From: Thuidium tamariscinum
Lineage: Eukaryota > Streptophyta > Bryopsida > Hypnales > Thuidiaceae
Length of the DNA: 64,000 bases
Reading direction: 5' to 3'
Assembly (NCBI GenBank): GCA_947034885.2
Contig: OX344758.2
Span: forward strand, 312,501-376,500
Shown: positions 1 through 39,699 of the stretch, one piece after another
How positions within the stretch are numbered: the first letter of the stretch is position 1
How the letters are laid out: each line of letters begins with the position of its first letter
Translations under genes and position numbers: made by a program
The notes under the pieces: generated by a model
What the model was told of the DNA's origin: nothing
The model's database searches: none
Seen by the model: only the letters and a program-made list of their open reading frames with translations

Positions 1-123
1 ATTGATAGCCTACAGGGGTGCTAGGAGCCCGGGGCCCGGGGCCCAAGGGCTGGTTCCGGTCTGAGGACTTGGGGGACAAGCGCTCCAGTTGGCCTTGGCG
101 GAAGAAGTAGATGTAGTGTCGGG
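1..123 (+). other. GC-rich leader of left TIFY-GATA gene
   Basis: GC-rich sequence with G/C blocks around 30-50, directly upstream of the ATG at 124. It is probably 5' untranslated or core promoter sequence. I see no convincing TATA element, and the window begins inside it. The same bases occur at 14701-14823. Confidence 0.5.
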
Positions 124-2602
124 ATGTCCACCACCGACTCCGACCACCTCGTGCACGCCCAGTCGCTGCAACTGCACCACAGCCAACTCCACCACCACCC
201 GCACAGCCTGAGCCATGGCCTAGGCCACGCCATGCACGAGATGCACGTGCACGGCCACGGCGACGCCGACGGGCAGGCGGGGGCGGGGGTGGAGCAGCAG
301 CAGCGCGGGCCGGGGCATTTGGAGGGCGAGCACGTGCATGTGCACCACGGCCACCACGGCCACGGCATGCATCACGGCAACGACGAGAACGGCGCCGGCG
401 GCGCCGAGCACGACGAGGACGCGGGCGACGAGGAAGGGCTGGACGAGGCGGACATGCACTCCGACGGCGGCGGCCACCCGGGCGACCAGCCCGTGCCGCT
501 GGCGGTGCGCTCGCAGGGCTCCACGCAGCTGACGCTTTCTTACCAGGGCGAAGTGTATGTGTTCGACACCGTGCCGCCGGAGAAGGTGAACAATCCTGAC
601 CCTCCGTGGAATCATATCGTGCCGGAATGCACTCTCACTGTGGTGTTCGTGTTTGATCAAGCGAATTTGTAATCTGCATATGAACATGGCGTGTTCGAGA
701 AGGACCAGATGGTGCGGTAGAAACAGCACCATCTGCGGCGATTCTTGGCTTCGTGGTTGTCACTGTAGCGGCCCACGTTGGGAGTTGTGTTTGAGAGTTG
801 ATCGCGTGAGTTTGGCGCGTTTGGGTTGCAGGTCCAGGCTGTGCTGCTTCTATTGGGCGGCCGCGAGATCCCTCCAGGCATGTCGGGTGTCAATGTTTCC
901 AGCAACCATCATCACAAGGTACAGCTCTCTTGCTCTCTTTTTTCCACTTGTTGCGACGGCTTTCTGATCACCTTGTATGTATGTGCGGTAGTGTGAACAG
1001 CAGCTCCCCTCTCCAGACGGAACACTGTGTCGCCGTGTTTGAGGGAGTGCCCTTGTGTGAGTACCGGTATGTCCTTTGAGGTTGTGGCTGGGCGTATGCT
1101 GCAGGGAATGACGGAGCTCCCGGCACGCATGAACATGCCGCAAAGGCTGGCCTCTTTGACGCGGTTTCGGGAGAAGCGCAAAGAGCGTTGCTACGACAAG
1201 CGGATTCGGTACACCGTTCGCAAAGAAGTCGCTCAAAGGTAGTTTTTTGGTTGTGTTGACCCACGACACTTTGCTTGCGTTTGCTCTTGAATGGTGCCGT
1301 ATTTGAGTTTCTTTTTCTCCTGGGCGTGTCTTGTCCGTGTCGGATTGGGAATCAGGAAACTCGCTCGTGTTGTTTGTGGCACGTCACTGGTTGCCTGGTA
1401 GTGGACTTTGGTGGGAAGTCTATTTGCGATAAGACCACTAGCGCGGAATCGGATGAATTTCTGACGATGTGAACTTGGGAGTGCGTTCAGGATGCAGCGC
1501 AAGAAGGGTCAGTTCGCCTCTTCGCGTCCCAGTCAGGAAGAGGGCGGCGCTGTTGCGAATTGGGATGGTACCCAAGCCCCTGGACAGCCTTTGGGTCCGG
1601 GAGGAGTTCAACCCGAAGTGACGTACGTCCTTGTTGTGACTTTTTGTGCTGCAAGCGCTCTTGCATCGTTCTCTTCCTAGAATGTGGGTTACGATTTGCG
1701 GCGTCTGGTTCCCGGTTGTTTTTGGAGGGCCTGTTTGTGCACATGTTTTCTGATTTTCCGTTCCCCACTGGGCAGGTGTGTACATTGCGGAATCGGAGAG
1801 CGGTCTACTCCAATGATGCGACGAGGACCATCCGGTCCTCGCACTCTGTGCAATGCCTGTGGCCTGATGTGGGCCAACAAGGTACGCAGCTGCATGATGT
1901 TGGTGTGTGATTTCAGAAGGTGGGTTGAGACCGCGAGAACCTGCACAGGTAGACAGCATGGTTCTGGGATCATTTTGGCGGAGCACGTGCCGCGAGTTGA
2001 TGTGTCTTTTGCGTGGCCTGTTTTTCAGGGTGTGTTGAGGGATCTTTCGAAGAACCTTCCAGTTGCCGCTGGAGGGCAGCAGCAACTGCTGTTGCATCCC
2101 CAGCAAGTAAGCGAGATATTGCGTTCCTGATGTGTGCTGTTTCCGTTCGTGAGTAGGCCAGAAGCTGAGTGTTAAGTTCGTGTGCAGTGTACCTTCGCGA
2201 AGAATCGTTGTTCTGAGTGTCTGAGCTGAGCAACTGTTGTGGTGTGTTATTTGGAGAGTACAGATGCTACAGCAGCAGCAACAGCAGCAGCTCCAGATTC
2301 CGGGCTTGCAGCATAGTGTAGAGAATGCTCCTCCAGTGGGGGTACGTGATCTCCGCTTTGGCCAGGTGTCGGAGCTTTTGTATGGAGTCCTCCCCCGCTT
2401 ATGTGAAAGCATGGATGCAGTGGAGACCAGCAGTAGAATTTCTGGAAGAGTGTACGGATGTGTTTGAGAATTTGGACCTGACCGCGGTGCATTGTTTTTT
2501 GTTCAGGATGTACAGGGCAGCCAACAGAGGGACGTGGATGTACAGAAGAATATGGCCAGCATGGTGGCAGCGGGTGGAGGTCCTGTTCTGGCCGCTGGAT
2601 AG
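124..2602 (+). CDS. ZML: TIFY-CCT-GATA zinc finger transcription factor (ZML class), left copy
   Basis: Nuclear DNA-binding regulator of the ZIM/ZML (class III GATA) family. Exons that join in frame: 124-585, 832-918, 1105-1238, 1491-1622, 1776-1881, 2029-2106, 2264-2341, 2507-2602, giving 390 residues. All introns are GT-AG. Residues 137-142 are the TIFY motif TLSYQG, split from [12 protein letters not shown] by intron 1 as in relatives. A CCT domain spans about 197-238 ([17 protein letters not shown]). The GATA finger has C273, C276, C297 and C300, that is CX2CX20CX2C, the spacing typical of TIFY-GATA proteins, followed by GVLRDLSKN. Residues 1-120 are unusually rich in His (27), Gly and acid. 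The ATG at 124 is the first in frame, and the Q-rich tail ends with [14 protein letters not shown] domains mediate protein-protein contacts in this family and GATA fingers bind WGATAR sites (family knowledge). Nothing in the sequence suggests the copy is broken. Confidence 0.93.
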
Positions 2603-3301
2603 GTGCCCGCGTGTTCGCCACCTGCATCTTGATCTCCAGCGATTGTAATTTTTTTTTTCCGGGGTTTGTTGACGCCCACAGAAGTGTCATGGGTGCTTTT
2701 GCCTACATGGAAAGTCTGGTCGTGCAGTGGCTGCTGCGCTCTCCACCTACAGAAAAGCTTCGTGAGGCTGCCGCCGCCGTTTGCCGATCCCGTCTGTGGG
2801 AAATGCTTTCAAAGACATAGTTCGCCCGGTTCCACTGCAAGCCAAGTGTGGAGCGGAGGGGCAGTATATTTGGGTGGGTTTGGTGCTCGGTCGAGCCCTG
2901 ACTCCAGATTTCGGCTTTTGATTGCCATCCATAAACCTACTTTTTCATGGGCGTGTATTTAATTTTTGGTCAAAGTTCGATTGGGATTATCGCTATCCTT
3001 GGACACTTTCGAGTCCGGGAGCTCTGGGCTTCCCTGTCGTCGGGGTGTGCGTTTGGCTGGTTGGGAGTGCGAGTGGGAGGTTCTTGCTTACTGTGTGTTC
3101 TGTGCACTTCGTCTATCAATGTTTTCGGTGACTCCTGAGGGGATCTTGGGATCCCGAGTGGTTAGTTGGTTTCATTGTGGTCTTTCGCGTTCTAGTCTGT
3201 TAAAGGCCAAGAAGATTCGGGACTGGGTTGTTTTCCTGCGCTTTGATGAGGCAACATTGCCTATCCTGGGAGTGATGAGGAGGCTTGTGAAAGGGTAGCA
3301 G
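2603..3301 (+). other. Probable 3' untranslated region, left copy
   Basis: GC-moderate sequence downstream of the TAG at 2600-2602. It is shared with the right copy to 3141 and unique after that. No further conserved coding exon is apparent. Base composition drops to the AT-rich spacer after about 3300. Confidence 0.5.
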
Positions 3302-11525: not shown

Positions 11526-11682
11526 CCAATTCTTTTCGAACACAAGTGCAAGCGACATCTAACACAAACTCACAGAACCTTAATTAAATCCCCGCAAACC
11601 ATAAAATAACTACAGCTCAATCCGTGAAACTCTAAAATTAGCAAGCGTACAAAATGTAGCCCAACCCGCAAATTCAAGGACG
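11526..11682 (-). other. Unique 3' flank of right TIFY-GATA copy
   Basis: Lies just inside the right arm, where the two copies stop matching. It probably contains the end of the right copy's 3' untranslated region, which therefore differs from that of the left copy. Confidence 0.4.
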
Positions 11683-14600
11683 CCCTCAGGAGTCACCGAA
11701 AACAGTGATAGACGAAGTGCACAGAACACACAGTAAGCAAGAACCTCCCACTCGCACTCCCAACCAGCCAAACGCACACCCCGACGACAGGGAAGCCCAG
11801 AGCTCCCGGACTCGAAAGTGTCCAAGGATAGCGATAATCCCAATCGAACTTTGACCAAAAATTAAATACACGCCCATGAAAAAGTAGGTTTATGGATGGC
11901 AATCAAAAGCCGAAATCTGGAGTCACGGCTCGACCCAGCACCAAACCCACCCAAATATACTGCCCCTCCGCTCCACACTTGGCTTGCAGTGGAACCGGGC
12001 GAACTATGTCTTTGAAAGCATTTCCCACAGACGGGATCGGCAAACGGCAGCGGCAGCCTCACGAAGCTTTTCTGTAGGTGGAGAGCGCAGCAGCCACTGC
12101 ACGACCAGACTTTCCATGTAGGCAAAAGCACCCATGACACTTCTGTGGGCGTCAACAAACCCCGGAAAAAAAAAATTACAATCGCTGGAGATCAAGATGC
12201 AGGTGGCGAACACGCGGGCACCTATCCAGCGGCCAGAACAGGACCTCCACCCGCTGCCACCATGCTGGCCATATTCTTCTGTACATCCACGTCCCTCTGT
12301 TGGCTGCCCTGTACATCCTGAACAAAAAACAATGCACCGCGGTCAGGTCCAAATTCTCAAACACATCCGTACACTCTTCCAGAAATTCTACTGCTGGTCT
12401 CCACTGCATCCATGCTTTCACATAAGCGGGGGAGGACTCCATACAAAAGCTCCGACACCTGGCCAAAGCGGAGATCACGTACCCCCACTGGAGGAGCATT
12501 CTCTACACTATGCTGCAAGCCCGGAATCTGGAGCTGCTGCTGTTGCTGCTGCTGTAGCATCTGTACTCTCCAAATAACACACCACAACAGTTGCTCAGCT
12601 CAGACACTCAGAACAACGATTCTTCGCGAAGGTACACTGCACACGAACTTAACACTCAGCTTCTGGCCTACTCACGAACGGAAACAGCACACATCAGGAA
12701 CGCAATATCTCGCTTACTTGCTGGGGATGCAACAGCAGTTGCTGCTGCCCTCCAGCGGCAACTGGAAGGTTCTTCGAAAGATCCCTCAACACACCCTGAA
12801 AAACAGGCCACGCAAAAGACACATCAACTCGCGGCACGTGCTCCGCCAAAATGATCCCAGAACCATGCTGTCTACCTGTGCAGGTTCTCGCGGTCTCAAC
12901 CCACCTTCTGAAATCACACACCAACATCATGCAGCTGCGTACCTTGTTGGCCCACATCAGGCCACAGGCATTGCACAGAGTGCGAGGACCGGATGGTCCT
13001 CGTCGCATCATTGGAGTAGACCGCTCTCCGATTCCGCAATGTACACACCTGCCCAGTGGGGAACGGAAAATCAGAAAACATGTGCACAAACAGGCCCTCC
13101 AAAAACAACCGGGAACCAGACGCCGCAAATCGTAACCCACATTCTAGGAAGAGAACGATGCAAGAGCGCTTGCAGCACAAAAAGTCACAACAAGGACGTA
13201 CGTCACTTCGGGTTGAACTCCTCCCGGACCCAAAGGCTGTCCAGGGGCTTGGGTACCATCCCAATTCGCAACAGCGCCGCCCTCTTCCTGACTGGGACGC
13301 GAAGAGGCGAACTGACCCTTCTTGCGCTGCATCCTGAACGCACTCCCAAGTTCACATCGTCAGAAATTCATCCGATTCCGCGCTAGTGGTCTTATCGCAA
13401 ATAGACTTCCCACCAAAGTCCACTACCAGGCAACCAGTGACGTGCCACAAACAACACGAGCGAGTTTCCTGATTCCCAATCCGACACGGACAAGACACGC
13501 CCAGGAGAAAAAGAAACTCAAATACGGCACCATTCAAGAGCAAACGCAAGCAAAGTGTCGTGGGTCAACACAACCAAAAAACTACCTTTGAGCGACTTCT
13601 TTGCGAACGGTGTACCGAATCCGCTTGTCGTAGCAACGCTCTTTGCGCTTCTCCCGAAACCGCGTCAAAGAGGCCAGCCTTTGCGGCATGTTCATGCGTG
13701 CCGGGAGCTCCGTCATTCCCTGCAGCATACGCCCAGCCACAACCTCAAAGGACATACCGGTACTCACACAAGGGCACTCCCTCAAACACGGCGACACAGT
13801 GTTCCGTCTGGAGAGGGGAGCTGCTGTTCACACTACCGCACATACATACAAGGTGATCAGAAAGCCGTCGCAACAAGTGGAAAAAAGAGAGCAAGAGAGC
13901 TGTACCTTGTGATGATGGTTGCTGGAAACATTGACACCCGACATGCCTGGAGGGATCTCGCGGCCGCCCAATAGAAGCAGCACAGCCTGGACCTGCAACC
14001 CAAACGCGCCAAACTCACGCGATCAACTCTCAAACACAACTCCCAACGTGGGCCGCTACAGTGACAACCACGAAGCCAAGAATCGCCGCAGATGGTGCTG
14101 TTTCTACCGCACCATCTGGTCCTTCTCGAACACGCCATGTTCATATGCAGATTACAAATTCGCTTGATCAAACACGAACACCACAGTGAGAGTGCATTCC
14201 GGCACGATATGATTCCACGGAGGGTCAGGATTGTTCACCTTCTCCGGCGGCACGGTGTCGAACACATACACTTCGCCCTGGTAAGAAAGCGTCAGCTGCG
14301 TGGAGCCCTGCGAGCGCACCGCCAGCGGCACGGGCTGGTCGCCCGGGTGGCCGCCGCCGTCGGAGTGCATGTCCGCCTCGTCCAGCCCTTCCTCGTCGCC
14401 CGCGTCCTCGTCGTGCTCGGCGCCGCCGGCGCCGTTCTCGTCGTTGCCGTGATGCATGCCGTGGCCGTGGTGGCCGTGGTGCACATGCACGTGCTCGCCC
14501 TCCAAATGCCCCGGCCCGCGCTGCTGCTGCTCCACCCCCGCCCCCGCCTGCCCGTCGGCGTCGCCGTGGCCGTGCACGTGCATCTCGTGCATGGCGTGGC

Positions 14601-14823
14601 CTAGGCCATGGCTCAGGCTGTGCGGGTGGTGGTGGAGTTGGCTGTGGTGCAGTTGCAGCGACTGGGCGTGCACGAGGTGGTCGGAGTCGGTGGTGGACAT
14701 CCCGACACTACATCTACTTCTTCCGCCAAGGCCAACTGGAGCGCTTGTCCCCCAAGTCCTCAGACCGGAACCAGCCCTTGGGCCCCGGGCCCCGGGCTCC
14801 TAGCACCCCTGTAGGCTATCAAT
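11683..14823 (-). repeat. Right arm of the giant inverted repeat
   Basis: Exact reverse complement of 1-3141 except substitutions at 11705, 11926, 11936 and 12049. The outer edge at 14823 is set only by the window start on the other arm. Confidence 0.97.
12222..14700 (-). CDS. ZML: TIFY-CCT-GATA zinc finger transcription factor (ZML class), right copy
   Basis: Reverse-strand twin of the gene at 124-2602, transcribed towards it. Exons in order: 14239-14700, 13906-13992, 13586-13719, 13202-13333, 12943-13048, 12718-12795, 12483-12560, 12222-12317. The predicted 390-residue protein is identical to the left copy: TIFY 137-142, CCT about 197-238, GATA finger C273/C276/C297/C300. All splice sites are kept. 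The four substitutions between the arms fall after the stop codon, so they are confined to the 3' region. Upstream sequence beyond 14823 is visible only for this copy (14824-16260) and is GC-moderate. Both copies appear able to encode the same factor. Whether both are expressed cannot be told from sequence. Confidence 0.93.
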
Positions 14824-16260
14824 TAGTGGCGCAGCGTGATTCCTCACCTATTAACTAACGCGGTGCACTATGAGAAACTCCAACTCCCGAAATCCAACTA
14901 GTACCGCCGAGCACAACCAGTGTCATCTCCATGGATCATCATCTCCTCGCGCACGACCCCACACGGCGCCGCATCCTCGGCTGCCGAGTGCTGTACCTCC
15001 ACCTGGGCAAGAAGGAATCCAGACACAACCACGATCACTGGAAGAACCAGAAGCACCAACCACCAGGGATGAACATCGTAAGCCACCTTGAAGAACAAAC
15101 CCCCCGCAATATGTGCCGTGACCGCAATTGACAATACAACGGCAGAGGATGTAATCAGGGATTTTTTGAAGTGGGAAATGATACCAAAGTCGTCACAAAG
15201 CAACAAACGATACGATTAAATGCTTATATGATAATGATGAAATCCCATGCCAGCAGCATACCAGAAAAGATTGGACTCTGGTCTTTCCTCAACCCTAAAT
15301 TGCAGCTCAGAGATTAGCAGGTCCACTGAATTTTTGAATCACAACATCAATTCAACCTAAAATAGACCTAAAGTGGAAAAAGAAATTCTGTTGAAATCCA
15401 AAGCTCACTTTGTATATGCAACGATTAGCGTGCGAACTCCAGGAGAAACATCGGAAACTATCCACCATAATAGCTCCTCACGATGGGTGCTCAATCTCTT
15501 CCTGACGATGCGTATAGTCACCAACACTCCTACACGACGTCATTAAATTTTTCCAAACAACAATCTCCAGGTGTACTCAAATACCCCTCGCCATAATTTC
15601 TACGAAATCATCCCGAAAAAAATATTAGGAACCACCGAGGCTTCGATTGTCGTGTACACCGCCCTGAATCCTCACTGCCAGTCCTGATTTTCGACGACGG
15701 CTTCGTATCTCTATCAGTAGAAACACCCCCCTGGGTCCTGAAATCAACCCACCCGAAACCAGGGATTGCAATCAAATTCGACAAAACCCACAACGCAAAA
15801 TTAAAATTTCCGCACACAGGGGAACTGAAGCGCGCGATACCTGAACGTGGTTACGTCTTGGCCATAGCCGGTGCGAGAGGCGCGGCACCCGTGGAAAGCG
15901 CCAACCATGTCCAAATCATGACAATGCGACGGCTGACCACGAAACGAAGCGAAACCCTAGTTGTGAGAGAGCCAAAAAACGTGGGCAAAGTCGCTCTTCG
16001 ACCGGGAAATGCAACAATATTGCGAGGTGGCAGAGAAGCTTGCGTGACGGATTGCAGACGAAGGGCGCGACGACGGAAGCGAGGGGAGGGCGGGCAGGGA
16101 GAGAGAGACGGCAAGCTTGGCTCCCTCGCGAGAGGCAAGGCGGGCACGGGCATAAGTAAGACTTTATGCCCCCCTTTGAGACCTGTAACTTTTCCGCGGG
16201 TCTCGAGGTGGAGAGCTTTTACTGTGGGCGGTTCGACTTTTTTACCCTCAGGTTAGTGCT
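14824..16260 (-). other. GC-moderate region upstream of right TIFY-GATA copy
   Basis: Distinctly less AT-rich than its surroundings, with a GC- and CpG-rich core at about 15850-16200. It could hold the promoter of the right GATA copy, of the frame at 14898-15206, or of both. Possible first exon on the minus strand at about 15920-15842: an ATG followed by 22 open codons and an AG/GTATCG donor. No acceptor could be matched to it. Confidence 0.4.
14898..15206 (-). CDS. Unidentified reading frame with two hydrophobic segments
   Basis: About 100 codons open on the minus strand, ending some 200 bp upstream of the right GATA start codon. Two stretches look like membrane spans, LITSSAVVLSIAVTAHIAGG and WWLVLLVLPVIVVVSGFLLA, separated by a short loop and followed by a charged tail. 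That pattern is unlikely from random sequence. There is no ATG before the first span, an in-frame stop lies just upstream, and I could not find an in-frame splice acceptor. It may be a terminal exon whose start was lost, a gene remnant, or chance. No family was recognised. Confidence 0.3.
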   Translation of the reverse strand: MLLCDDFGIISHFKKSLITSSAVVLSIAVTAHIAGGLFFKVAYDVHPWWLVLLVLPVIVVVSGFLLAQVEVQHSAAEDAAPCGVVREEMMIHGDDTGCARRY

Positions 16261-25974: not shown

Positions 25975-27985
25975 ATGGGAATCAAGTTCCCACAAACCTT
26001 TTCTATCTCCAAATTCCACTTTGCCAAATGGTGGCAATGTTGATGGTGAGGCCAACCTTCTTTTGTTACTTTGTATTGCTTAAGTAAGAGTTTGCAAAGG
26101 GATATTGATATGGAGCAATAGTTTTTTAAGTCACTACTACTAACAAAGCTAAAGAGAGCTCAAAGTTTACAAAGGAAGAGAATGATTGAGAAGTGGGATC
26201 TATTGTGGAAAAAAAAGAATGACATCTTCAACACCTACATAGAATCCATGCTTAATCTCAAGTTTTTTAAAACTTGAAGTTCTACATTTGTGATGGTAAT
26301 CACCACTTCATCTTGTAAATGAAGCACATTACCATGCAACATTGCAAAGAATAAGGTTTACATTGTATTGTTAATTGACTCTATTGTGTTGGATATAAAA
26401 AGGAAGAAAAATTGGTCATGCATGTTATGCATGACATAAACAAGTAAGTGAACTTATAGAGCTTAGTAGATTTGGCTTTTAGGTATTTTTTTCATTTGAA
26501 AATGTTGCATATGATATGCACAACAATAGCATAGTGTCATTTCATAAAATGCAAGTTCACAAAAGACTCTCGTGTAAAGAGAAGTCTAGTCCATACCTTA
26601 TATAGAGTTCAAAAGCATTAGATGAAATTTGAATCTTTAAAGGGTTGTTTTTTGCTAGTTCCCCTTACTGTTTTTACATCAATGAGGGAACAATTGATAG
26701 CAGTCAACCAATATAAATACAAAAAATTAAACAAATAAAATTGGGCCACTAAAATTGAAAAAAAAAGTCGATTTCTTTTTACAAAACAAAACAAAAAATC
26801 TAAAATGATCATAGCCCAACTACATCAACTTTTTGTTAATCTACAATTCTCGTAGTTCTACACTGCATAGGAACTTGCAATCTTCTCTTCACTAAAATCT
26901 CCTCCAATGTATAAACTTCTTTCTATCAAAATGTTCAATGAGATGTTGAGGCCTTTAGAGCTCAATAATATAAGGCATTGAGAACCAAAAAGACTTGGTA
27001 TTTTATGCCATTGGAGGTCTTTACATCTTTTGTTTTTTGGATGAGTAATTATTTCAATGTTTTTATCTTTTTATCTACTCTATTTTATTTTGGCTTTTAC
27101 TTTATACATTGTGTTTACATTTATTTATCATCGGACTTGTATAGCAAGAGTTTACTTTTCTATATATGTAGTAATTTGAAGATACAATGAGATCATGGCA
27201 AAGAAGGAGAAGACTCCCAAGGGACTTAAGCATGCCATAAGACATGGAGCAGAATAAAAGACAAGGAAACTCAATGTCAAGATGATGAAGTTGGTCACGA
27301 TAACCAATCCAACAAATAAGCTAAGGTTTTCAAAAGAGGTATATTTAGTGTACACACTTTGATTGTATAATAATGGTCTAGCTTGGAGTTGAAATTGTAA
27401 TTTACATTGCTTGTATTTTTTAAGCAAGTGAAAAAACATTGAAGGACAAATGAAGTCCGTTAGAAAAACTGCAAGTAGTTTTCATTTGCAATACAAGGCC
27501 TACTCACAAGATCAAGTTCTTCAAGTAGTGGAACTCCTCCATGCCATCATTTGAAGCTAGACATTTTCCACCAAGGCCTATATTTAAGACATTTTTTGGC
27601 CCTTTCTTGAATTGATGTATCTAGGATATTAGGATAAGTAATTGCTTTTGAATTTTTTTTCTCATTTTTTCAAAATCAAAATTTGTATTTATAAGAATTT
27701 TGAATTTTTCAAATTTTTGCAATGCACTATGTATTAATTTTAATGCTCATAGATGTATTTTTTTTACAAATTGAAGATGCAACTATTGAATACTCTAAGG
27801 ATGTCTTGAGGCAAGACAACAACATCATCAATATGAACTGTCCACAACAACAACAGACCTTACCAAATTATTTGAAACAATGGAGGAGAAAGATCTGGGA
27901 TCAAGGTTTATTAGTTCATCTAAGAAGAATGAATTACTTCAAAAAAAATAATGATTTTAAACGTAAGTTCTTCTTCACATAATAG
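25975..27985 (+). pseudogene. Decayed ParB-like gene, copy 1 (multi-exon, broken)
   Basis: Runs parallel to 33040-34770 block by block: 26040-26130 with 33115-33225, 26160-26450 with 33240-33530, 26910-27080 with 33720-33850, 27180-27345 with 34000-34135, 27430-27610 with 34205-34440, 27770-27985 with 34556-34770. Recognisable pieces are FYICDGNH (compare VCDGN in copy 2; DGNHR is the hallmark of ParB/sulfiredoxin-fold domains), VMHDINK, and RRKIWDQGLLVHL...NYFKK. The blocks are separated by intron-like gaps. No methyltransferase half follows within the window. The copy is old, clearly broken, and interrupted by a MITE at 26616-26909. Identification as ParB-like is inference from a short motif plus the linked methyltransferase-like region of copy 2. 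Confidence 0.55.
26616..26909. mobile_element. CAT...ATG MITE inside ParB-like copy 1
   Basis: Left end CATTAGATGAAATTTGAATC. The right part, GGAACTTGCAATCTTCTC then AAAATCTCCTCCAATG, matches the right part of the MITE at 8900-9263. Copy 2 has the uninterrupted site at about 33690. Confidence 0.6.
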
Positions 27986-30974: not shown

Positions 30975-31372
30975 GTACAGACAAGATCTTTTATTTAGGA
31001 ATGTATTGTCATTTTCTAAAAACTTTCCACAATTGACTAGTTTCAAATTAATGTGGTCACTTTTTAACTTTAATTTTTTTAAAGTTATGGGTGGCTTATT
31101 AGTCTTTATTGATGCTAACTAGTACAAAATGATTCATTTTGACATTTCTTACGTCTTGAAAATATCCTTTGATCCATGAACTTAGTGTTTCTTAATTCAA
31201 TTTATAAAATTCAAAATTTAATTTGAGGGCTTATGCCATTTATAATTATTCAGTGAGAAACATCAAGAATTCGTGAAAGCTTGTTTATCTCTTAAAATTT
31301 TTGAAAAAAAAGTCTCTTGGATTTGTTTTTTGCAATTTTATAATGATTAATTTGAAATTTTATTCAACAATT
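30975..31372. other. AT-rich gap
   Basis: Nothing recognised. Confidence 0.3.
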
Positions 31373-31464
31373 ACCATATTTGAGAGTAACATGAGGTGAC
31401 ACTTGGAGGGTAGTTGGATCTGACTGACCTCTAAGTGTCACTTCACGTTACTCTCAAATATGGT
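31373..31464. repeat. Hairpin repeat
   Basis: ACCATATTTGAGAGTAAC pairs with GTTACTCTCAAATATGGT, and the arms continue inward to about 35 bp each (GTGACACTT/AAGTGTCAC). Probably a miniature MITE. Confidence 0.75.
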
Positions 31465-31488
31465 ACCTATTAAATAGAGTTTTAAATC

Positions 31489-31910
31489 AATTATGTATTT
31501 ATTAAATTTATAATCCTTCTTTGTGAAGTCTAAGACAATGTCTAGGAATGAATAAACTCAAATAGGATGAAAAATATTTTGAATAAAATAATAAATATTT
31601 AGTCATTTTTGCAATAGCCCTAGATGTTTTATAATATTTTCTTGTATTTTTCTTTATATATTGAATATAGTAGAAAATTGTAGTTTTTTAATATTTGGCA
31701 ATTATGTATTTATTAAATTTATAATCCTTCTTTGTGAAGTCTAAGACAATGTCTAGGAATGAATAAACTCAAATAGGATGAAGAATATTTTGAATAAAAT
31801 AATAAATATTTAGTCATTTTTGCAATAGCCCTAGATGTTTTATAATATTTTCTTGTATTTTTCTTTATATATTGAATATAGTAGAAAATTGTAGTTTTTT
31901 AATATTTGGC
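31489..31910 (+). repeat. Recent 211-bp tandem duplication
   Basis: 31489-31699 is repeated at 31700-31910 with one difference seen (GATGAAAAATA versus GATGAAGAATA). It begins at AATTATGTATTTATT. Confidence 0.95.
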
Positions 31911-32210
31911 AATATATAAAGTTTTTTTTATTTGTCTCAATTTATCATTAGAAAGTTCTCTAGATATCATTGAAATGTCTCTATATTAATATTGAAGACC
32001 AACTTCAAAAGGGGCTTCAGGTTCTTCCTACACATCTGTTAGGGTTGTCTGAGGTGTAAGGTGTACCCAAAGTCCCTTTGAAAACTAATCCTCAAGTTTT
32101 CAATATGATGCTAAACCCTAAAGCCAAGAATTCAATTTTGTTGTGTCATCGTGAACCTTATTAACTTTAATTCAATTGAGTTGTAGACGGAGCATTGTAA
32201 GGGTAAGTAC

Positions 32211-32588
32211 ATGAAGGCTTCATCTTCAAAGAATGAAGATACAAATCCTTCAATCGATATGACTTTTTCTGCCCTTGACATTGATAGGCCTTTTAAGCCA
32301 AAAAAATGGACACAGCCAAATGTTCCTATCTCTAGCGACTCTAGTGATGGGAAAGAAGAGTTGGTAAGTTTTGCTGACATTATGGATGCAGCTAAGCATG
32401 CCGTAGATGCCTTGAAACATGATAGACTTAGTTACACACAAAGGCGTAGAAAACTAGTGTTTTTACTTGAGAACTTTGAGACAAAATCTTCTTTTGTTGA
32501 TGTGCTTTCCATATCTAATTCTAGTCCTCAATATGAGGAGATTTGTAATTGTACTTGTAGCGGTAGTTTGGGACCACTCAAAGTATGA
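32211..32588 (+). CDS. Unidentified acidic/Ser-rich exon or small gene
   Basis: 125 codons open from an ATG, with protein-like composition: a Ser/Lys start (MKASSSKNED), a PFKPKKWTQPN segment, then an Ala/Lys helix-like stretch DIMDAAKHAVDALKHDRL. A coding-like charged block follows at 32850-33024. Position and strand fit the N-terminal part of the ParB-methyltransferase-like copy 2, which starts about 450 bp further on. I do not recognise the family, and it may itself be part of a broken gene. Confidence 0.35.
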   Translation: MKASSSKNEDTNPSIDMTFSALDIDRPFKPKKWTQPNVPISSDSSDGKEELVSFADIMDAAKHAVDALKHDRLSYTQRRRKLVFLLENFETKSSFVDVLSISNSSPQYEEICNCTCSGSLGPLKV

Positions 32589-32849
32589 AGTAATCATTTT
32601 AAGCTCTGACTCAGATGAGAATGAAGATGTTGACATACTTTGAGGGAGTTTTGAATTGAAGCGCTTCTTTTTTATATTTATCGTGTTCAATTTTTTTATA
32701 AAGTCCAATTTTGAATAATTGATGCAATTAGTTGTTCGAAAAAATGACAACTTTTATTTTATCATTCGGAATTGCTTTTACATGAGACTTCATAGAGAAA
32801 AATCATTTTTTCTCATTAGTCAATCATTTCACTTTTTTGAAATTTTTGG

Positions 32850-33024
32850 TGTAGATGGAAGAGTCTCTTCTAAGAGAAACACAAGAGGAAAAAAAATCTT
32901 GAAGACTCCTAAAATCGACGACACAATGCAGCTTAGCATTGAAAAAGGAGAGGAGAGAAAATTCATCGAGGAAGATGTTGTTGATGATGAAGAGAAAGAT
33001 TTGATGGAAGACGAACTTCGGTGA
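32850..33024 (+). other. Charged coding-like block
   Basis: Encodes basic then strongly acidic sequence (SSKRNTRGKKILKTPK, then EEDVVDDEEKDLMEDELR). It is probably an exon of the same gene as its neighbours, a linker-type region. Confidence 0.3.
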
Positions 33025-34755
33025 TATAGAAGGGGTATTCGGTAAAGACAATTTCCAACTTGAGAATGAAGCCCAACGATCTTTTCCAACTCCATATTTG
33101 GCTTTGCAGGCTAGTCACAATGCCCATGGTTAGGCCTATATTCTCTTGTGATATTAAAAAGTTAGAGCAAGAATTTGTTGGAGGGTATTGAGATGGCGTA
33201 GTCATCTTCTATATATGTTTTTATGACTAATGAAAATAGAGAGAACTTATAGTTCACAAAGGTGGAGATGAATGAGTAGGAAGCATTATGGAAATAAAAG
33301 AATGATGTCTTCAACAACTAAGAAGAATCAAAAGCGGAACTCAAGCTTCTCAAGAACTTGAAGTTCTTTGTTTGTGATGGCAATCGAATTGCCTAGATGA
33401 ACCTTATTAATAGGTTATATCCATTGGTTCCAAAATGACACTATGCGGTTAATTGTATAGTACTAAATACAAAGGGAAGAATTGAAGTTGTCATGCAAGC
33501 AATGCATGATATCAACAAATAAGTTTTCAAAAGAGCTTATGTTTTTGGTCCTTAAAATACAAGGCCCTTTGTTTTGTCAATTATTTATTACTTCACTATG
33601 AAATACAATATTATCTAAGAAATTGACTCATTTGTAGATCAACGGAAGACTCCTATGTAAAGACGAATTTAGTTCATATTTTGTACCAAGTTCAGCGGTA
33701 TGGACTTCTACCTTTGGAGTGGTTCAATGAACTTCTAAGGCCATCAAAGAAGAAAAAGTGTATTGAGAAAACTGAATGAAAAAAATTATATTCTATACCT
33801 ATAGAGGTCTTCACCTCATTCATGTTTTGGGTAAGATAGCTGTTCATTGTCTATGAAACACCTTCACATTCTTAGCCATATCATGATTGTAATTCTTTTT
33901 TGTTCATTAAATTGAAAATTGATGTGCTTCTCCAACAAGAGATTTCTCAAGCTGCGGATGCTATAGTGCGAAAGTACATAGAGGCAATTCTGGTCAATGA
34001 AAGAAGGGAGGATGAACTTGTTCATGCCATGAAGGTGGGAACAAAAGAGAAAACTACAAATGTGTATATCAAAATGTTTAAATTGTTGACGGTGGCCAAT
34101 CTAGCAAATGGACCTGCCTTTATAAAAGAAGTAAGTACAAGAATATACAACATGACTGTTCATTTGCTTTTGTTTTTAAAAAGAATTTGGCTTTGTTGTT
34201 GATGTAGGTAGAGAAACATTGGAATGTAAATGAGGTTTCAAAAATAACATTGGAAAAGTTTCAAATGGTGGCAACATGCAATACGACTCCCGCCTACAAA
34301 ATTAAGATCTTGCAGTACTGGAACTCTTCTCTTCCATCTTCGGAAGCTAGGAAATTCTCGACAAAATCTGTTTCCAAGAATTACCTTGGGCCCTTTCTTG
34401 CTAAATGTGTTTGGTATACGGTGGTAAGTTTATGACTTTTTGTATTTGCTTAATAGTAATACATGATATTTATTATTAGATATTTAATTTGAGAGGTTGG
34501 AGTGATAAACTATATATCAACAATTATAGATTCTAATTATGAAATTTTTTACAGATCAAAGATTCAACCATCGAGCACTTTGATTCAGTGGTGAAGCAAA
34601 ACAACCTCAATGCAAATTACAATGTTCCATTGCAACCTAAGTACTTACTAGAGTACATTGAGGGATAGAGGCGCAAGATTTGGGATAAAAGCTTTGATAC
34701 ATATTTCAAGAGGACAAATTACTTCAAAAAAAGGGACTCATTTACGAGAAATGAT

Positions 34756-35920
34756 GCTAGAATATGAGCGAGGAGCAATGAGTGTTGAGCAACAAGTAAT
34801 GAAACTTGAATGTTCATTGCAAAAATAGTTTTAAAAATAGACATGTTACAACAATAAATAGTATTGTCAAATCCAAAAATAATAATGTCAAAAAAAAAAT
34901 TTCATTTCATTTCAAAAATTTACAAAATTTACAAAAAAATTATATAAAATAGTTGATATTATAATGAAAGATTGCATGAATGAATATCCATTCATTCATG
35001 TGTAAATGAACTTCATCCATATCATCCATCCATCATCCATTATTCATCATTCAATTTTCAAATTGTTAAAATTTTTGCAACTCATTATAAACTTCTTTGA
35101 AACCAAGGAAGTTTTGAACCATCCGTGCTCTTTAATATTGTCTCCCTAAAAGCCTCTTTGGAATCCAAAAAAGTTTTTTCAATTCAAAGAGTCTTTCTTT
35201 GGAGCCAAAGGGCTCTCCTAGTATAGGCTTTTTAAAACCTAAAAAAGGCTTCGCAGATTCGAGGAGCTTTTCCTTAGTGCCAAAAGACTTTTAATTTGGG
35301 CTTTTTAATTCATGAAAGGCTCCTTGAATCCAAGGAGCATTTTTTGGTGCCAAAAGGTCTTTCATTGTAACCACTTTGGAATTAAAAGAAGAGTACTTCA
35401 AATCAATGAGCCCTTCATTTGTACCAAAAAGATCATTAAGAGCGTCCTTGAATTGAAGAGGTCTTAAAACCATTATTGCTTTTAAGTATTGTCTCCCTAC
35501 AAGTCTCCTTGGAATTCCTAAGAGCCTCTTTGAAATCTAAGGAAGGCTCCTCAGATTCGAGGAACCATTTTTTGATACCAAAAACTTCTTGCACCAAAGG
35601 CTCTTTTAAACCCAAAGAAGAGTCTTTGGATCCAAGAAGCCTTTTGTTGATGCCAAAAAGTTCTTTCAATTAAGGCTTTTTAAAGCCCAAAGAATAATGT
35701 ACATCCATCGTTCTATATCTTTTCATCCACATTTTTCATCTACATTCATCTAGTATTATTTTCATCCATCTAAAGTAATGAATGAAATAAGGCATTTACA
35801 TCTAAAGATTTATTTTTTATAAAATTAATCTTTAAATGTTCATTTTTAAATTTAGAAAAAAAATTCTTAACACTCAAATCTTCCTACTCAACGCTCAACG
35901 TTCAATGCTCATATTTTAGC
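34756..35920. mobile_element. 1.16-kb GCTAG-ended element with internal repeats
   Basis: Ends GCTAGAATATGAGC and GCTCATATTTTAGC, with further pairing inward (TGAGTGTTGAGC against GCTCAACGTTCA). It is inserted just after a coding-like block of ParB-methyltransferase copy 2. The interior (35095-35690) is built from degenerate 75-bp units. Confidence 0.65.
35095..35690 (-). repeat. Degenerate 75-bp tandem repeat inside the element
   Basis: Read on the minus strand, consecutive 25-codon units align, for example ELFGINKRLLGSKDSSLGLK followed by EVFGIKKWFLESEEPSLDFK. A higher-order period is also visible: AGGGAGACAATA recurs about 360 bp apart. Confidence 0.7.
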
Positions 35921-36206
35921 AACCTTGATTTACAAGTCATGAAGGTTCCAACTCAGCAATGTACAAAGTTCTCTTCCAGTATGTTAGTTCAATGAAATAT
36001 TAACATATGTAGGTTTTTATAAAGTATTATATGAATTTGTGATTTAAATCAAACCTCTAAGTATTGTTGTATTCATCTATTTAGTTGTACTACGGGACTG
36101 ATGTGTGGGAGCAAAAGGAGAGCTGGAAAAACTACAACTTCAATTAGATCAATTACAGGTTGAAGAGGTGTTGATTGTTGAATGAAAACATTCATTGTTG
36201 GTTTTT

Positions 36207-37130
36207 TTAACCCCTAAAGGACCATTGTCCCCTCGGGGGACAATTTGGAGTTTGGGTAGGTTCCGTAGACCTCAATTTTTAATGAATCTTTTTGAAACTT
36301 TCTCATAAGATAGGAAAACTGATTAGCTTCATGGGAATGTAATTTTTATTTCAATTGGTGACCGGGAGCAAAAGTTATACCACAAAAAGCCCAAATTTTC
36401 ATTCGGCGGGCAGAATTTTCTTTTTGCAAGAAGTCAAAATTTAATTTTAAATTTTTTTTTTCTAAAATAATATATTTTTGCCTACATGTGAAGCTTTGAT
36501 TCACTCTATTTGGACTTATAATGAGAAAGTTATGGACAATCTTGTTTTTCGGACAATCTAAACAATTTCTTGAAAAAATAACTTATAGGATTCATTTTTT
36601 AATGCAATTTTCACAATTTTTCAAAAAAAATTGTTGGACGAGGTTATGTTTACTTTTTAGAACAATCTCACCATTGGGATTATTGTATTTCAATCCCATC
36701 TTAGAGTTATTAACCATTTAGTTTTTCTTTCAATCTTGGACCTACATCTACTTAACAATTTTTTAAAGGATGAAAATCAAGTGTTTTTTGTGTGAAATTT
36801 TTTTTCTAGACTCTCAACTCAATTTATTAACACAAAAAATTATAAATTCAAAGTCTATAGTGCAATTTTTTAATACAAATTCCAGTCAAAGTCATCTGAA
36901 ATTGCAAACCACAGTTCAAAAAAACTTGTATTTCCAACTTTGAATGCTCATATCTTCCAATCTGTACGGTCAAACTTCATGAAATTTTTACCACTTGATC
37001 TCAATCAAGTTAAGTACAAGATCCTACGGTTAGATTCTTAAAAAAAATTGTTTTCTTGGATGAATGCAACAGAACTGGCAGTTTTGAGAGGTTTTTGACA
37101 AAAAAAAGGCCTTGGTCCTTTAGGGGTTAA
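36207..37130 (+). mobile_element. piggyBac-like non-autonomous element (best-preserved copy)
   Basis: TTAA at 36207-36210 and 37127-37130, with perfect termini CCCCTAAAGGACCA and TGGTCCTTTAGGGG. The 916-bp interior has no open frame of note. Related copies in the window: 17809, 21809, 45097, 63019. Superfamily inferred from TTAA targets and CCC ends. Confidence 0.8.
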
Positions 37131-38850
37131 ATTAGTTTGGATAAATTGTTATACCATATCTTCTTATTTAGTTGTTTTTTCTTTCTAAATTTGCATTGCT
37201 TTAATTATTCTCAAGAGTTCTTGAATTCTAAAAATGGATTTCATTTTATTTTTTATTTTTTAATTCCATCTTGACCATTTGCCTTCTATTTCCATCATGA
37301 ATATTGTTTTTAATGATTGATTGTTATTGTATTGCAACTACTTCAAATTTGAGTTAGAAGTCAAAGGAGTCATCTTACAATTTAATTTGGCATCTTCAAC
37401 TATAGATTAGGGTTTACAAATGTAGAGCAAATTTCAAAGCGGAGTGAAGGAGAAAGTCACCCTCTCATAGATCATTGAAGATGTTATCACTCATGTGAGA
37501 ATGTTATCATTCATGTGACACAAGCAATGGTCCTCACAGAAGATGATTTGGCCAAGATTGAGGATTTAATCCTCAACATCTCTATTAAAGACCTTGCATA
37601 TGATATAGACGTTGAAAATCCAACTTGGTTCAACAAGGTTTTTTTTTTAAAGAAGGTAATAAGGTTTAATTTTCAAATGAAAGTTCATTTATTATTTCTT
37701 GATTAGATGAATGATGTCTATCTTTATAGTCGATGTTCTAATACATTTAATGTTTGCAGATGTTGGCTGGAAAGACTTGCATGTTTTATGGTGTGCCAAA
37801 TGCTAGACCAAGGGTCGATGTCATTTTCTTTGACTACCCAGACAATTTGCCCGTGCTAGGACTATCTTCTTCAAAAAATGATATTCCAAAGTGGAACATT
37901 GATGTGGCAGATGATGGTCTGCAATCAGTCTTTTGTTTTGCAGATCCACATTTGTAAGACTATAGTTGCATCATTGTGTTTCATTCTTAAAGCATTGAAG
38001 CAAAATCAAACATTGCAGAGGTGTGTGAGACGTACCAGATGGTAGTGAAGAAGGACTAGATGGGAATAAACCACATGCATTTGACCTCAGCTATAGATAA
38101 AACGAAGACGGTAAATCTCAATAATTTTTTTGGAGTTTTTATGCAAAATTCATAATGCACATTGTTTCATGCATTTTAATCTACATTTTCTTTGAATAAT
38201 TTAGACATAGAAATTTGGAATTACCCTTATCGTAAAGGACTCTAGAGATAAAGGGAAATCCAATTTTTCTTTCAAGCCCACTACCACAACGAAGAAGGCT
38301 GGTGTAGACATTGCATACAATGACATGTTGATGAACTACACTCATTTAGATGACATGGCAATGAATGTGAAAAAGCTATGGCAGGCAGAGCACAAAAAAG
38401 ACCCAAGATTCTTCACTATTCTCTTTGAAGCAACTAATGTTGAAGGAGACTTGATTTTAGATTGCACATCATCTACAAGTGAATGTTCAATTCAATTATT
38501 CTACATTTGAATTGTAGTTTATAGCTAAAATCATTGAACCTATATATTTTATTTTCTTGCCTTCAGGTGCATGCATTATTTCTTTTTGTGGCAATAGCCG
38601 TTATATTGTGGCTTTAGAGGGATACAAGGACATTTACAATGCCATTCTCAAGCCAATGAAGAAGTCAGTAGCAATTGTGGTGTCAACACCAACTCCAACA
38701 CTAGTAGTTCAAGTTTCACAAGACCTGGACAATATGCCCGTGGTGCCTCGAAAGTTTGCTCGTAAGGGAAATTCAGTAAATAAGTTGGCATTTTTAAAAT
38801 TCTTTCTTTGCATTGTATTTTGCACATTCTAAAAGCCTAACATCATATCT

Positions 38851-39699
38851 TATTTTTTGGAAGGGGGCGATGATTGATGCCATTAGATTCATTCTTGAAG
38901 AATTACATTACTTCGGAGAAGATTTTTGAACTTCCAATCTATGCTAAGCAAATCGCAAGTGCCTTTGTGGATTTTGGTTGCTCTAAACCAAAACACCATA
39001 AAGACACTTATATTCTAAATGTCTTGTAGTATATAGATGTATTTGCATCAAAGGGTAGAGAATCTTTTAGAGTCATCTATGGGTTCTGATTCTACAACCA
39101 AATCCACGGCGACTTAGATTCATGAGATTGATAAATCTCTTGGATCAAAAAATTGTATGTTGATTTTCATTTTGATTGGATTTGTGTGTTTTATGGCTAC
39201 TTGTTGATTGTCTTTCTTTTCCTCTCACATTTTTCAATTGCTTCATTTCTTTAAAAATTAACAATATTTGATGCTTGCCAAAAAAGAAAGGATCAAAAAC
39301 ACAATTTGACACCCCACTTCTCATAGACAAAACCTTACATTCTCTCTACTACACAAGATACTAAATCCACAGTCATAGGTCCCCATTGAAAAAAATTCAA
39401 ATTATTTTTTTCCCGCTCACAGGCTCACATGCTCACAAGCTTGCCAAAGAGCAACCTCGCAACTTAGGCTCATGATATTGATGTATCTTATGAGTCAAAC
39501 AACTATCTTTTCATTTTCATTATGATTAGATTTGTGTATTTTATAGCTACATATTGTGTGATTTCTTTTCCTTGGCATTTTTACATTCCAAGTTTTATAT
39601 TGAAATTGAATATCAATCATACTGTCTTAAATCCTAGAAAAGGATTTGGAGAAGTCAAATAAATGTACACCATTTGAAGTGTTTAAAAAAATATAGTTT
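38851..39699. other. Repeat debris
   Basis: Around 39415-39480 lie fragments of a GCTCAC-rich MITE end (GCTCACATGCTCACAAGC). Otherwise nothing is supported. Confidence 0.35.

Follow-up and report, generated by a model that had tools for sequence, protein, structure and literature searches.

What gene left the string of decayed exons that runs through one stretch of the genome of the moss Thuidium tamariscinum, and what might its protein have done? The stretch, called the window here, is a 64-kb piece (C10:312501-376500) of the genome that we searched (363 Mb, 19 contigs). From 32.2 to 39.46 kb it holds the decayed exons of a single gene, with a CDGN(H)R motif followed by methyltransferase motifs in the beta-class order. 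An initial annotation, made from the letters alone, had seen in these blocks a ParB–methyltransferase fusion gene captured from bacteria or phages, naturalised and multiplied in the plant genome, now broken, and possibly used for DNA base modification. We find instead that it belongs, as the second gene, to an abundant, autonomous-looking Mutator/IS256-like DNA transposon, and that the window holds a dead and decayed remnant of this transposon family. The elements carry short palindromes that differ between subfamilies and are uniform within each of them. On balance, we favor the view that the gene encodes a self-recognition protein acting on its own element, probably against silencing, a view drawn from sequence and from analogy with a known plant system.

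The transposon unit is best seen in two young copies, A (15,678 bp) and B (15,667 bp), which are >99% identical and stop sharply at both ends. Copy A is flanked on both sides by TAATGAGAAA and copy B by GATGTTGCAT, that is, by 10-bp target duplications. A third copy belongs to another subfamily (66–81% alike where long stretches align); its ends are of the same kind, and its duplication is CTGTACCAAC. All three copies with both ends read thus carry a 10-bp duplication, while the 5' end of a fourth copy (C61) was not found. Mutator-like and IS256 elements produce target duplications of 9–11 bp. The element is 15.6–15.7 kb long (15,561 bp in the third copy), and its terminal inverted repeats are weak and unequal, the 5' end of A matching a 3' end, inverted, at 84% over 50 bp. 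A motif of the 3' end, CAGGGTTGCTAKYWKGCGAGC, occurs exactly 135 times in the genome, against 0 for its reversed control. Upstream of the gene, on the opposite strand and divergent from it, lie open frames of 750 codons (tnpA) and 469 codons (tnpB); tnpA gives a weak match to the NCBIfam IS256 family (E 0.005), and tnpB has a SWIM-like end (weak match, E 0.26). Counted among the top 150 hits of the gene and the top 150 of the transposase, an opposite-strand transposase lies 1–40 kb upstream of 91 of the 150 gene hits, 73 of these at 10.0–13.4 kb, as against 3/150 on the mirrored side and 10/150 on the same strand within 40 kb. The target duplications, the ends and this linkage together place the gene in a Mutator/IS256-like transposon. 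The likeness to IS256/MULE elements lies in the 10-bp duplication, the weak IS256 match of the transposase and the SWIM-like end of tnpB, whereas a tnpA that matches nothing in Pfam, the poor inverted repeats and a second conserved gene set the element apart. Upstream of copy B we also noted a tandem array with a period of ~63 bp (L066, 1455-2546).

The gene itself is a multicopy one. Pieces of exon 8 and exon 9 each match at 150 of the 150 genome places scored (E <= 1e-12; taken from 526 and 565 first-look candidates, respectively), which excludes a chance match, and by our count 135 of the 150 exon 8 matches are free of stops within the 65-aa query. An intact relative, L060 (C1:22812670-22822669), holds a 1,102-aa open reading frame of ten exons separated by GT-AG introns, likely with an additional upstream exon (exon 1). 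The aligned stretches of the ten exons are stop-free also in L062 and L063, with one stop in L059 and two in L061. The named blocks are real and stand in the beta-class order (CDGN..R in exon 2, a helical part in exons 3–7, motif IV in exon 8 and motif I across exons 9 and 10), and the spliceosomal introns between them are borne out by the intact copy; "broken" describes the window copy correctly, but the family is not extinct. That the host is a green eukaryote is supported by 49 chlorophyll a/b-binding protein matches in the genome, along with the GT-AG introns. Multiplication of an intron-bearing gene in a plant was rightly perceived, but its vehicle is a DNA transposon with very young copies rather than a naturalised host gene.

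Between subfamilies, the ratio of nonsynonymous to synonymous divergence (dN/dS) is 0.10–0.13 for the whole gene, 0.14–0.17 for exons 8–10, 0.13–0.16 for tnpA and 0.08–0.10 for tnpB, all rough values, as dS is near saturation in several comparisons and could not be computed for some segments. These low ratios, like those of the transposase, suggest that the element needs the methyltransferase-fold protein. One candidate for a further element part was rejected: a 392-aa open frame in L047 (32-1207; DUF7869, E 1e-23, transposase-like by eye) occupies the place of exons 10 and 11, with exon 10 cut and exon 11 absent, and a search of 58 loci and the window found it once only, as an insert in one copy. 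Downstream of the 3' end of the intact copy (L060, 9147-9998), open frames resemble by eye a hAT-type transposase. Many of the listed copies seem to lie on the small contig C11 (17.5 Mb), which may be a sex chromosome or an otherwise repeat-rich one.

The non-coding parts of the elements hold several perfect palindromes, GTCGGATCCGAC. A genome-wide count gives 655 of this 12-mer and 1 of the reversed pattern. The listing covers the first 50 distinct sites, all on C1, and each of them has a known copy of the gene (49 sites), of the transposase (40 sites) or of both no more than 20 kb away; such neighbourhoods make up ~3% of C1. By our count, 32 of the 50 stand 4.2–6.7 kb upstream of an exon 8-9 match, between the divergent genes and near the start of the methyltransferase-fold gene; others lie near the transposase, ~0.4–1 kb before the exon 8-9 match, or ~1 kb after it. 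With all 50 listed sites at element copies, independent fold-back elements were rejected as the source of the main palindrome type. Among 23 sites (exact or with one mismatch) in five copies, 10 have arms of 45–82 nt and 13 have arms of 8–16 nt, and the long arms, though self-complementary, have a different sequence at each site. No alignment is possible between the central regions of three subfamilies, whose sole common 11-mer is the palindrome core (block shuffles gave a mean of 0.045 shared 11-mers and at most 2). All three palindrome patterns searched are built on the core TCGGATCCGA, which holds GATC.

The palindrome changes from one subfamily to another, and does so at all sites of an element together. 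L079 (C7:5427500-5436499), 9 kb of an element of another subfamily lying downstream of an opposite-strand transposase at C7:5423055, contains five copies of CTCGGATCCGAG and zero of GTCGGATCCGAC; it carries exons 1–7 of the gene, exons 2–7 at 51–78% identity. Genome-wide, CTCGGATCCGAG occurs 292 times versus 4 for its control. On C1 below 34.74 Mb, the range reached by both the G-type and the C-type listings, all 11 scored transposase hits could be compared: 8 have only G-type sites (2–7 each), 2 only C-type sites (1 and 7), and 1 has one of each. An element with its transposase at C2:6273849 carries three TTCGGATCCGAA in the corresponding place. The subfamilies thus use different but internally uniform palindromes. 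If a cognate binding protein had changed, one would expect just this: the same change on both sides of the palindrome, repeated at every site of an element.

What kind of protein might read such sites? The C-terminal part is supported as a beta-class amino-methyltransferase by fold, and the motifs named in the initial annotation do align to methyltransferase profiles. N6_N4_Mtase (PF01555) is the sole Pfam family matched by this part, in seven of seven members (best E 6.5e-4), although member 1 scores 18.3 bits, below the curated cut-off of 26.7, and in the whole 1,102-aa protein the match reaches only E 1.5. PHROG methyltransferase families match up to 7/7 members (best E 7.8e-6). A profile–profile alignment by hhalign to two phage methylases gives a probability of 95 and E 3.9e-8 over 63 columns around motif I (score 59, decoy maximum 18.8), an E-value that is flattering given that the two had been chosen as the best tblastn matches. 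The best structure match, the solved adenine methyltransferase 5hfj, is colinear, with residues 18-97 aligned to 22-103 and 188-235 to 180-227 and motif IV before motif I; its whole-sequence E is 0.014, and either stretch by itself is not significant.

The catalytic signature, however, is altered. In none of the 39 distinct copies with the stretch aligned does motif IV read [DNS]PP[YFW] (DPPY); 20 have DCPEN, and the Tyr position is taken by Glu, Asp, Lys or Asn. Of 38 copies, 36 retain the S-T of motif I. Because DPPY has become DCPE, the fold probably serves binding of DNA or S-adenosylmethionine rather than catalysis, and a role in DNA base modification is doubtful. In phages, tblastn found the motif I region of two methylases only (E 0.2 and 0.6), and searches that detect fairly close relatives only found no prokaryotic or viral relative in IMG/VR viral contigs (with A1 and A2), GTDB genomes (with A2) or plasmids (with one ParB-segment sequence).

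The N-terminal segment is less secure. DGNHRR is invariant in five of five aligned members, whereas L079 reads DGNHRL and the decayed copies of a nine-sequence set vary. The motif fits the GxxR type of P motif, which marks the ParB-CTPase fold (PMC12704722). A ParB-like PHROG family (E 0.0086) and DUF1015 (E 0.093) were each matched by one of the five members, and PF02195 (ParB_N) matched nothing in an exon-by-exon reading of the genome. Profile comparisons of the full and trimmed segments, with five and nine sequences, against PDB, NCBIfam, Pfam and PHROGs and by hhalign gave nothing significant for ParB; the trimmed segment retrieved phycobiliproteins and similar proteins from PDB, at E 0.23 or worse. 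The ParB assignment is a weak one, drawn from motifs: the ParB identity first proposed keeps its motif and the single PHROG and DUF1015 matches, but does not stand out from decoys once profiles are compared. The middle part of the protein (residues ~286-738 of 1,102) has no credible family match.

We envision that the protein, with its methyltransferase fold and putative ParB-like segment, would recognize the palindromes of its own element. By occupying them, or by spreading from them, it could prevent host silencing from closing the element and its divergent promoters; it might also, or instead, regulate its own gene, and autoregulation from the upstream sites would be equally compatible. The anti-silencing purpose is proposed by analogy with VANC. 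VANC proteins bind subfamily-specific short motifs in the non-coding regions of their own VANDAL elements and remove silencing there (PMC5735166), and VANDALs are described as MuDR-type elements (PMC12730594). Both systems combine a DNA transposon, an accessory protein and short subfamily-specific motifs in the element's own non-coding parts. They differ in that the protein here has a methyltransferase fold and a ParB-like segment, the sites are palindromes instead of same-strand arrays, and anti-silencing is argued from the analogy. DUF1985, the VANC domain, is absent among the three Pfam matches of the 1,102-aa protein (E up to 5). A more specific, tentative version, which we regard as possible but not as the expected outcome, is a parS-like self-marking in which a ParB-type clamp joined to a catalytically altered methyltransferase would load at palindromes nearly confined to its own subfamily, spread and shield the element from silencing, protein and palindrome changing together as new subfamilies arise.

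Several observations weigh against the self-recognition reading or the transposon assignment beneath it. The IS256 match of tnpA is its only family support, as Pfam, MULE included, yields no match; and 59 of the 150 top gene hits have no top-150 transposase within 40 kb upstream, a figure in which cut elements and the limit of the list are not told apart. C-type sites fall in listed elements in only 15 of 23 cases on C1 and 16 of 27 on C2, the rest lying elsewhere. Apart from the three in one element, the listed sites of the A/T type stand mostly alone and dispersed, and their pattern is found 268 times versus 38 for its control. L079 was read to exon 7 only, its methyltransferase exons being outside the stretch read. 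For ParB, hhalign scores of 15.4 versus 15.3 for a decoy (five sequences) and 17.2 versus 17.3 (nine) do not rise above decoys, and the choice of the two phage methylases counts on the same side.

The most direct competitor is an active DNA amino-methyltransferase, which would methylate the adenine of GATC (or a neighbour) in the palindrome and thereby mark the element against silencing or for the timing of transposition. It has in its favor the beta-class fold seen by Pfam, PHROG, hhalign and the 5hfj alignment, the GATC of the core, the purifying selection on exons 8–10 and the conserved S-T of motif I. But the [DNS]PP[YFW] signature is missing in all 39 copies aligned, residues such as Glu, Asp, Lys or Asn in place of the motif IV Tyr should not stack on a flipped base, and two one-mismatch sites in C61, GTCGAATCCGAC, are without GATC, which also speaks against our own reading of a uniform site; we consider catalysis improbable. 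A somewhat better, though still unlikely, alternative is that the transposase or tnpB uses the palindromes as its own sites and that the protein with the methyltransferase fold has another role, for example in RNA modification or in general interference with host methylation. Transposase and palindromes do share the same elements, and each of copies A and B has one of the palindromes placed between its frames tnpA and tnpB. Transposases of the IS256/Mutator kind act at element ends, however, whereas 32 of the 50 listed sites are between the divergent genes.

DNA cruciforms or RNA hairpins, with a role in promoters, splicing, replication or as a small-RNA source and kept uniform by gene conversion, would account for the 10 of 23 sites whose long self-complementary arms differ in sequence, arms that a plain protein site would not need and that therefore also weigh against us. 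The other 13 sites have short arms, though, and constancy is limited to the central core, a pattern more in keeping with a protein site than with a hairpin; we think such structures a poor explanation of the palindromes. The reading of the initial annotation, in which the plant took up a fusion gene from bacteria or phages, made it a host gene, multiplied it and used it for DNA base modification, is very unlikely indeed. Phage ParB–N6_N4_Mtase fusions are known (PMC12704722), and in the collections searched phage methylases come nearest to the methyltransferase part, which leaves room for the domain to derive distantly from prokaryotes or phages. But the copies examined at both ends are transposon units with target duplications and a transposase, for which a captured host gene was rejected, and the viral, prokaryotic and plasmid collections returned no close relative.

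Among the closest known systems are the fusions of ParB with N6_N4_Mtase, enriched in phages and prophages (PMC12704722). They share with the present protein a motif of the ParB type next to an amino-methyltransferase domain. The differences are that here it is a plant transposon gene of at least ten exons with a long middle part and no DPPY, and beyond motif I no relative was found in the phage, plasmid, viral and prokaryotic collections searched. Fungal DNA transposons carry genes of the TET/JBP DNA-modification type, thought to serve the element itself (PMC12730594); they likewise have a gene for a DNA-modification-type protein aboard a DNA transposon, but of another fold and in another kingdom, and in the present case palindromes are tied to the element. 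No prior report of the present system was found in open-access PMC (ParB with methyltransferase and Mutator-like transposase; moss transposons and genomes). Plant transposons have to contend with silencing, and the self-recognising anti-silencer among them known to us is VANC. By this analogy, the moss element would be an apparently independent system of VANC-like logic, built on a prokaryote-type methyltransferase fold; if the ParB assignment is true, it would mean that a eukaryotic mobile element uses ParB-type logic. The tie of the palindrome to the element (655 to 1) and its clean change between subfamilies make binding and specificity directly testable.

How does the relic in the window fit this element? 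Its exons are colinear, from 32199 to 39065, with the translated exons of L060 (11 exons, tblastn; best pieces E 7e-43 to 5e-15, with another short piece of exon 1 at E 0.006), and the relic extends from the palindrome at ~31343 to the 3' terminus at 39462. The span first proposed, 33040-38850, therefore placed the blocks correctly but was too short. The features, with tblastn values against L060, are as follows.

31343-31494, no strand: decayed element palindrome, an inverted repeat with 72-nt arms, 81% complementary
31413-31424, no strand: palindrome centre GTTGGATCTGAC, where intact elements have GTCGGATCCGAC; both differences are C to T in CpG
32199-32640, plus strand: exon 1 remnant (45% over 129 aa, E 1.6e-26; the second piece is the one at E 0.006)
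32863-33516, plus strand: exon 2 remnant with the ParB-like segment FFVCDGN..R (39% over 228 aa, E 6e-39; 13 stops)
33636-33827, plus strand: exon 3 remnant (70% over 64 aa, E 3.6e-28)
33936-34130, plus strand: exon 4 remnant (49% over 65 aa, E 5e-15)
34208-34417, plus strand: exon 5 remnant (64% over 70 aa, E 7.5e-29)
34555-34755, plus strand: exon 6 remnant (54% over 67 aa, E 3.7e-21)
36211-37126, no strand: unrelated nested insert of 916 bp with inverted ends CCCCTAAAGGACCA and TTAA on both sides (ends read)
37393-37655, plus strand: exon 7 remnant, exon end only (60–61%, E 8e-17)
37760-38110, plus strand: exon 8 remnant with the motif IV region DVIFFDYPDNLPV (62% over 117 aa, E 7e-43; 3 stops)
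38211-38477, plus strand: exon 9 remnant with the first half of motif I, GDLILDCTSST (65% over 89 aa, E 2e-35)
38566-38775, plus strand: exon 10 remnant with the second half of motif I, GACIISFCGNSRYIVALEGYKDIYNAILKP (61% over 70 aa, E 9e-23)
38862-39065, plus strand: exon 11 remnant (61% over 71 aa, E 2e-23; 2 stops)
39400-39462, plus strand: decayed 3' terminus of the element, CCCGCTCACAGGCTCACATGCTCACAAGCTTGCCAAAGAGCAACC (intact: ...GCTCGCC..CTAGCAACCCTG; final bases compared by eye)
25989-27958, plus strand: second relic of the same gene, exons 2, 3, 5 and 6 (exon 2 E 1.7e-21, exon 5 E 1.3e-14, exon 6 E 1.1e-16)

The intact copy L060 has an inverted repeat of the same dimensions, with 72-nt arms at 81%, upstream of the same exon as the palindrome of the window. 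At the other end, window positions 39400-39441 are 95% identical to positions 15606-15646 of the 15678 of element A. Between exons 6 and 7 (~34760-37390) no L060 exon was matched by tblastn, and a search of the whole window for transposase remnants gave no match at E < 0.01. The nested insert has a 90% identical copy in L059 (718-1643), just upstream of exon 1 there, and we take it to be a piggyBac-like non-autonomous element. Past the 3' terminus, positions 39463-39560 resemble by eye the sequence after exon 11 once more, as if an older second copy ended there.

Far from the relic, the window also contains a pair of inverted arms of 3,152 bp each (1-3152 and 11672-14823), 100% complementary, 8.5 kb apart and rich in G+C. 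They have CAGGGGTGCTAGGAGCCC near their outer ends, reach the first base of the window and may continue beyond it; the pair has the appearance of a large inverted-repeat element or duplication of very recent origin.

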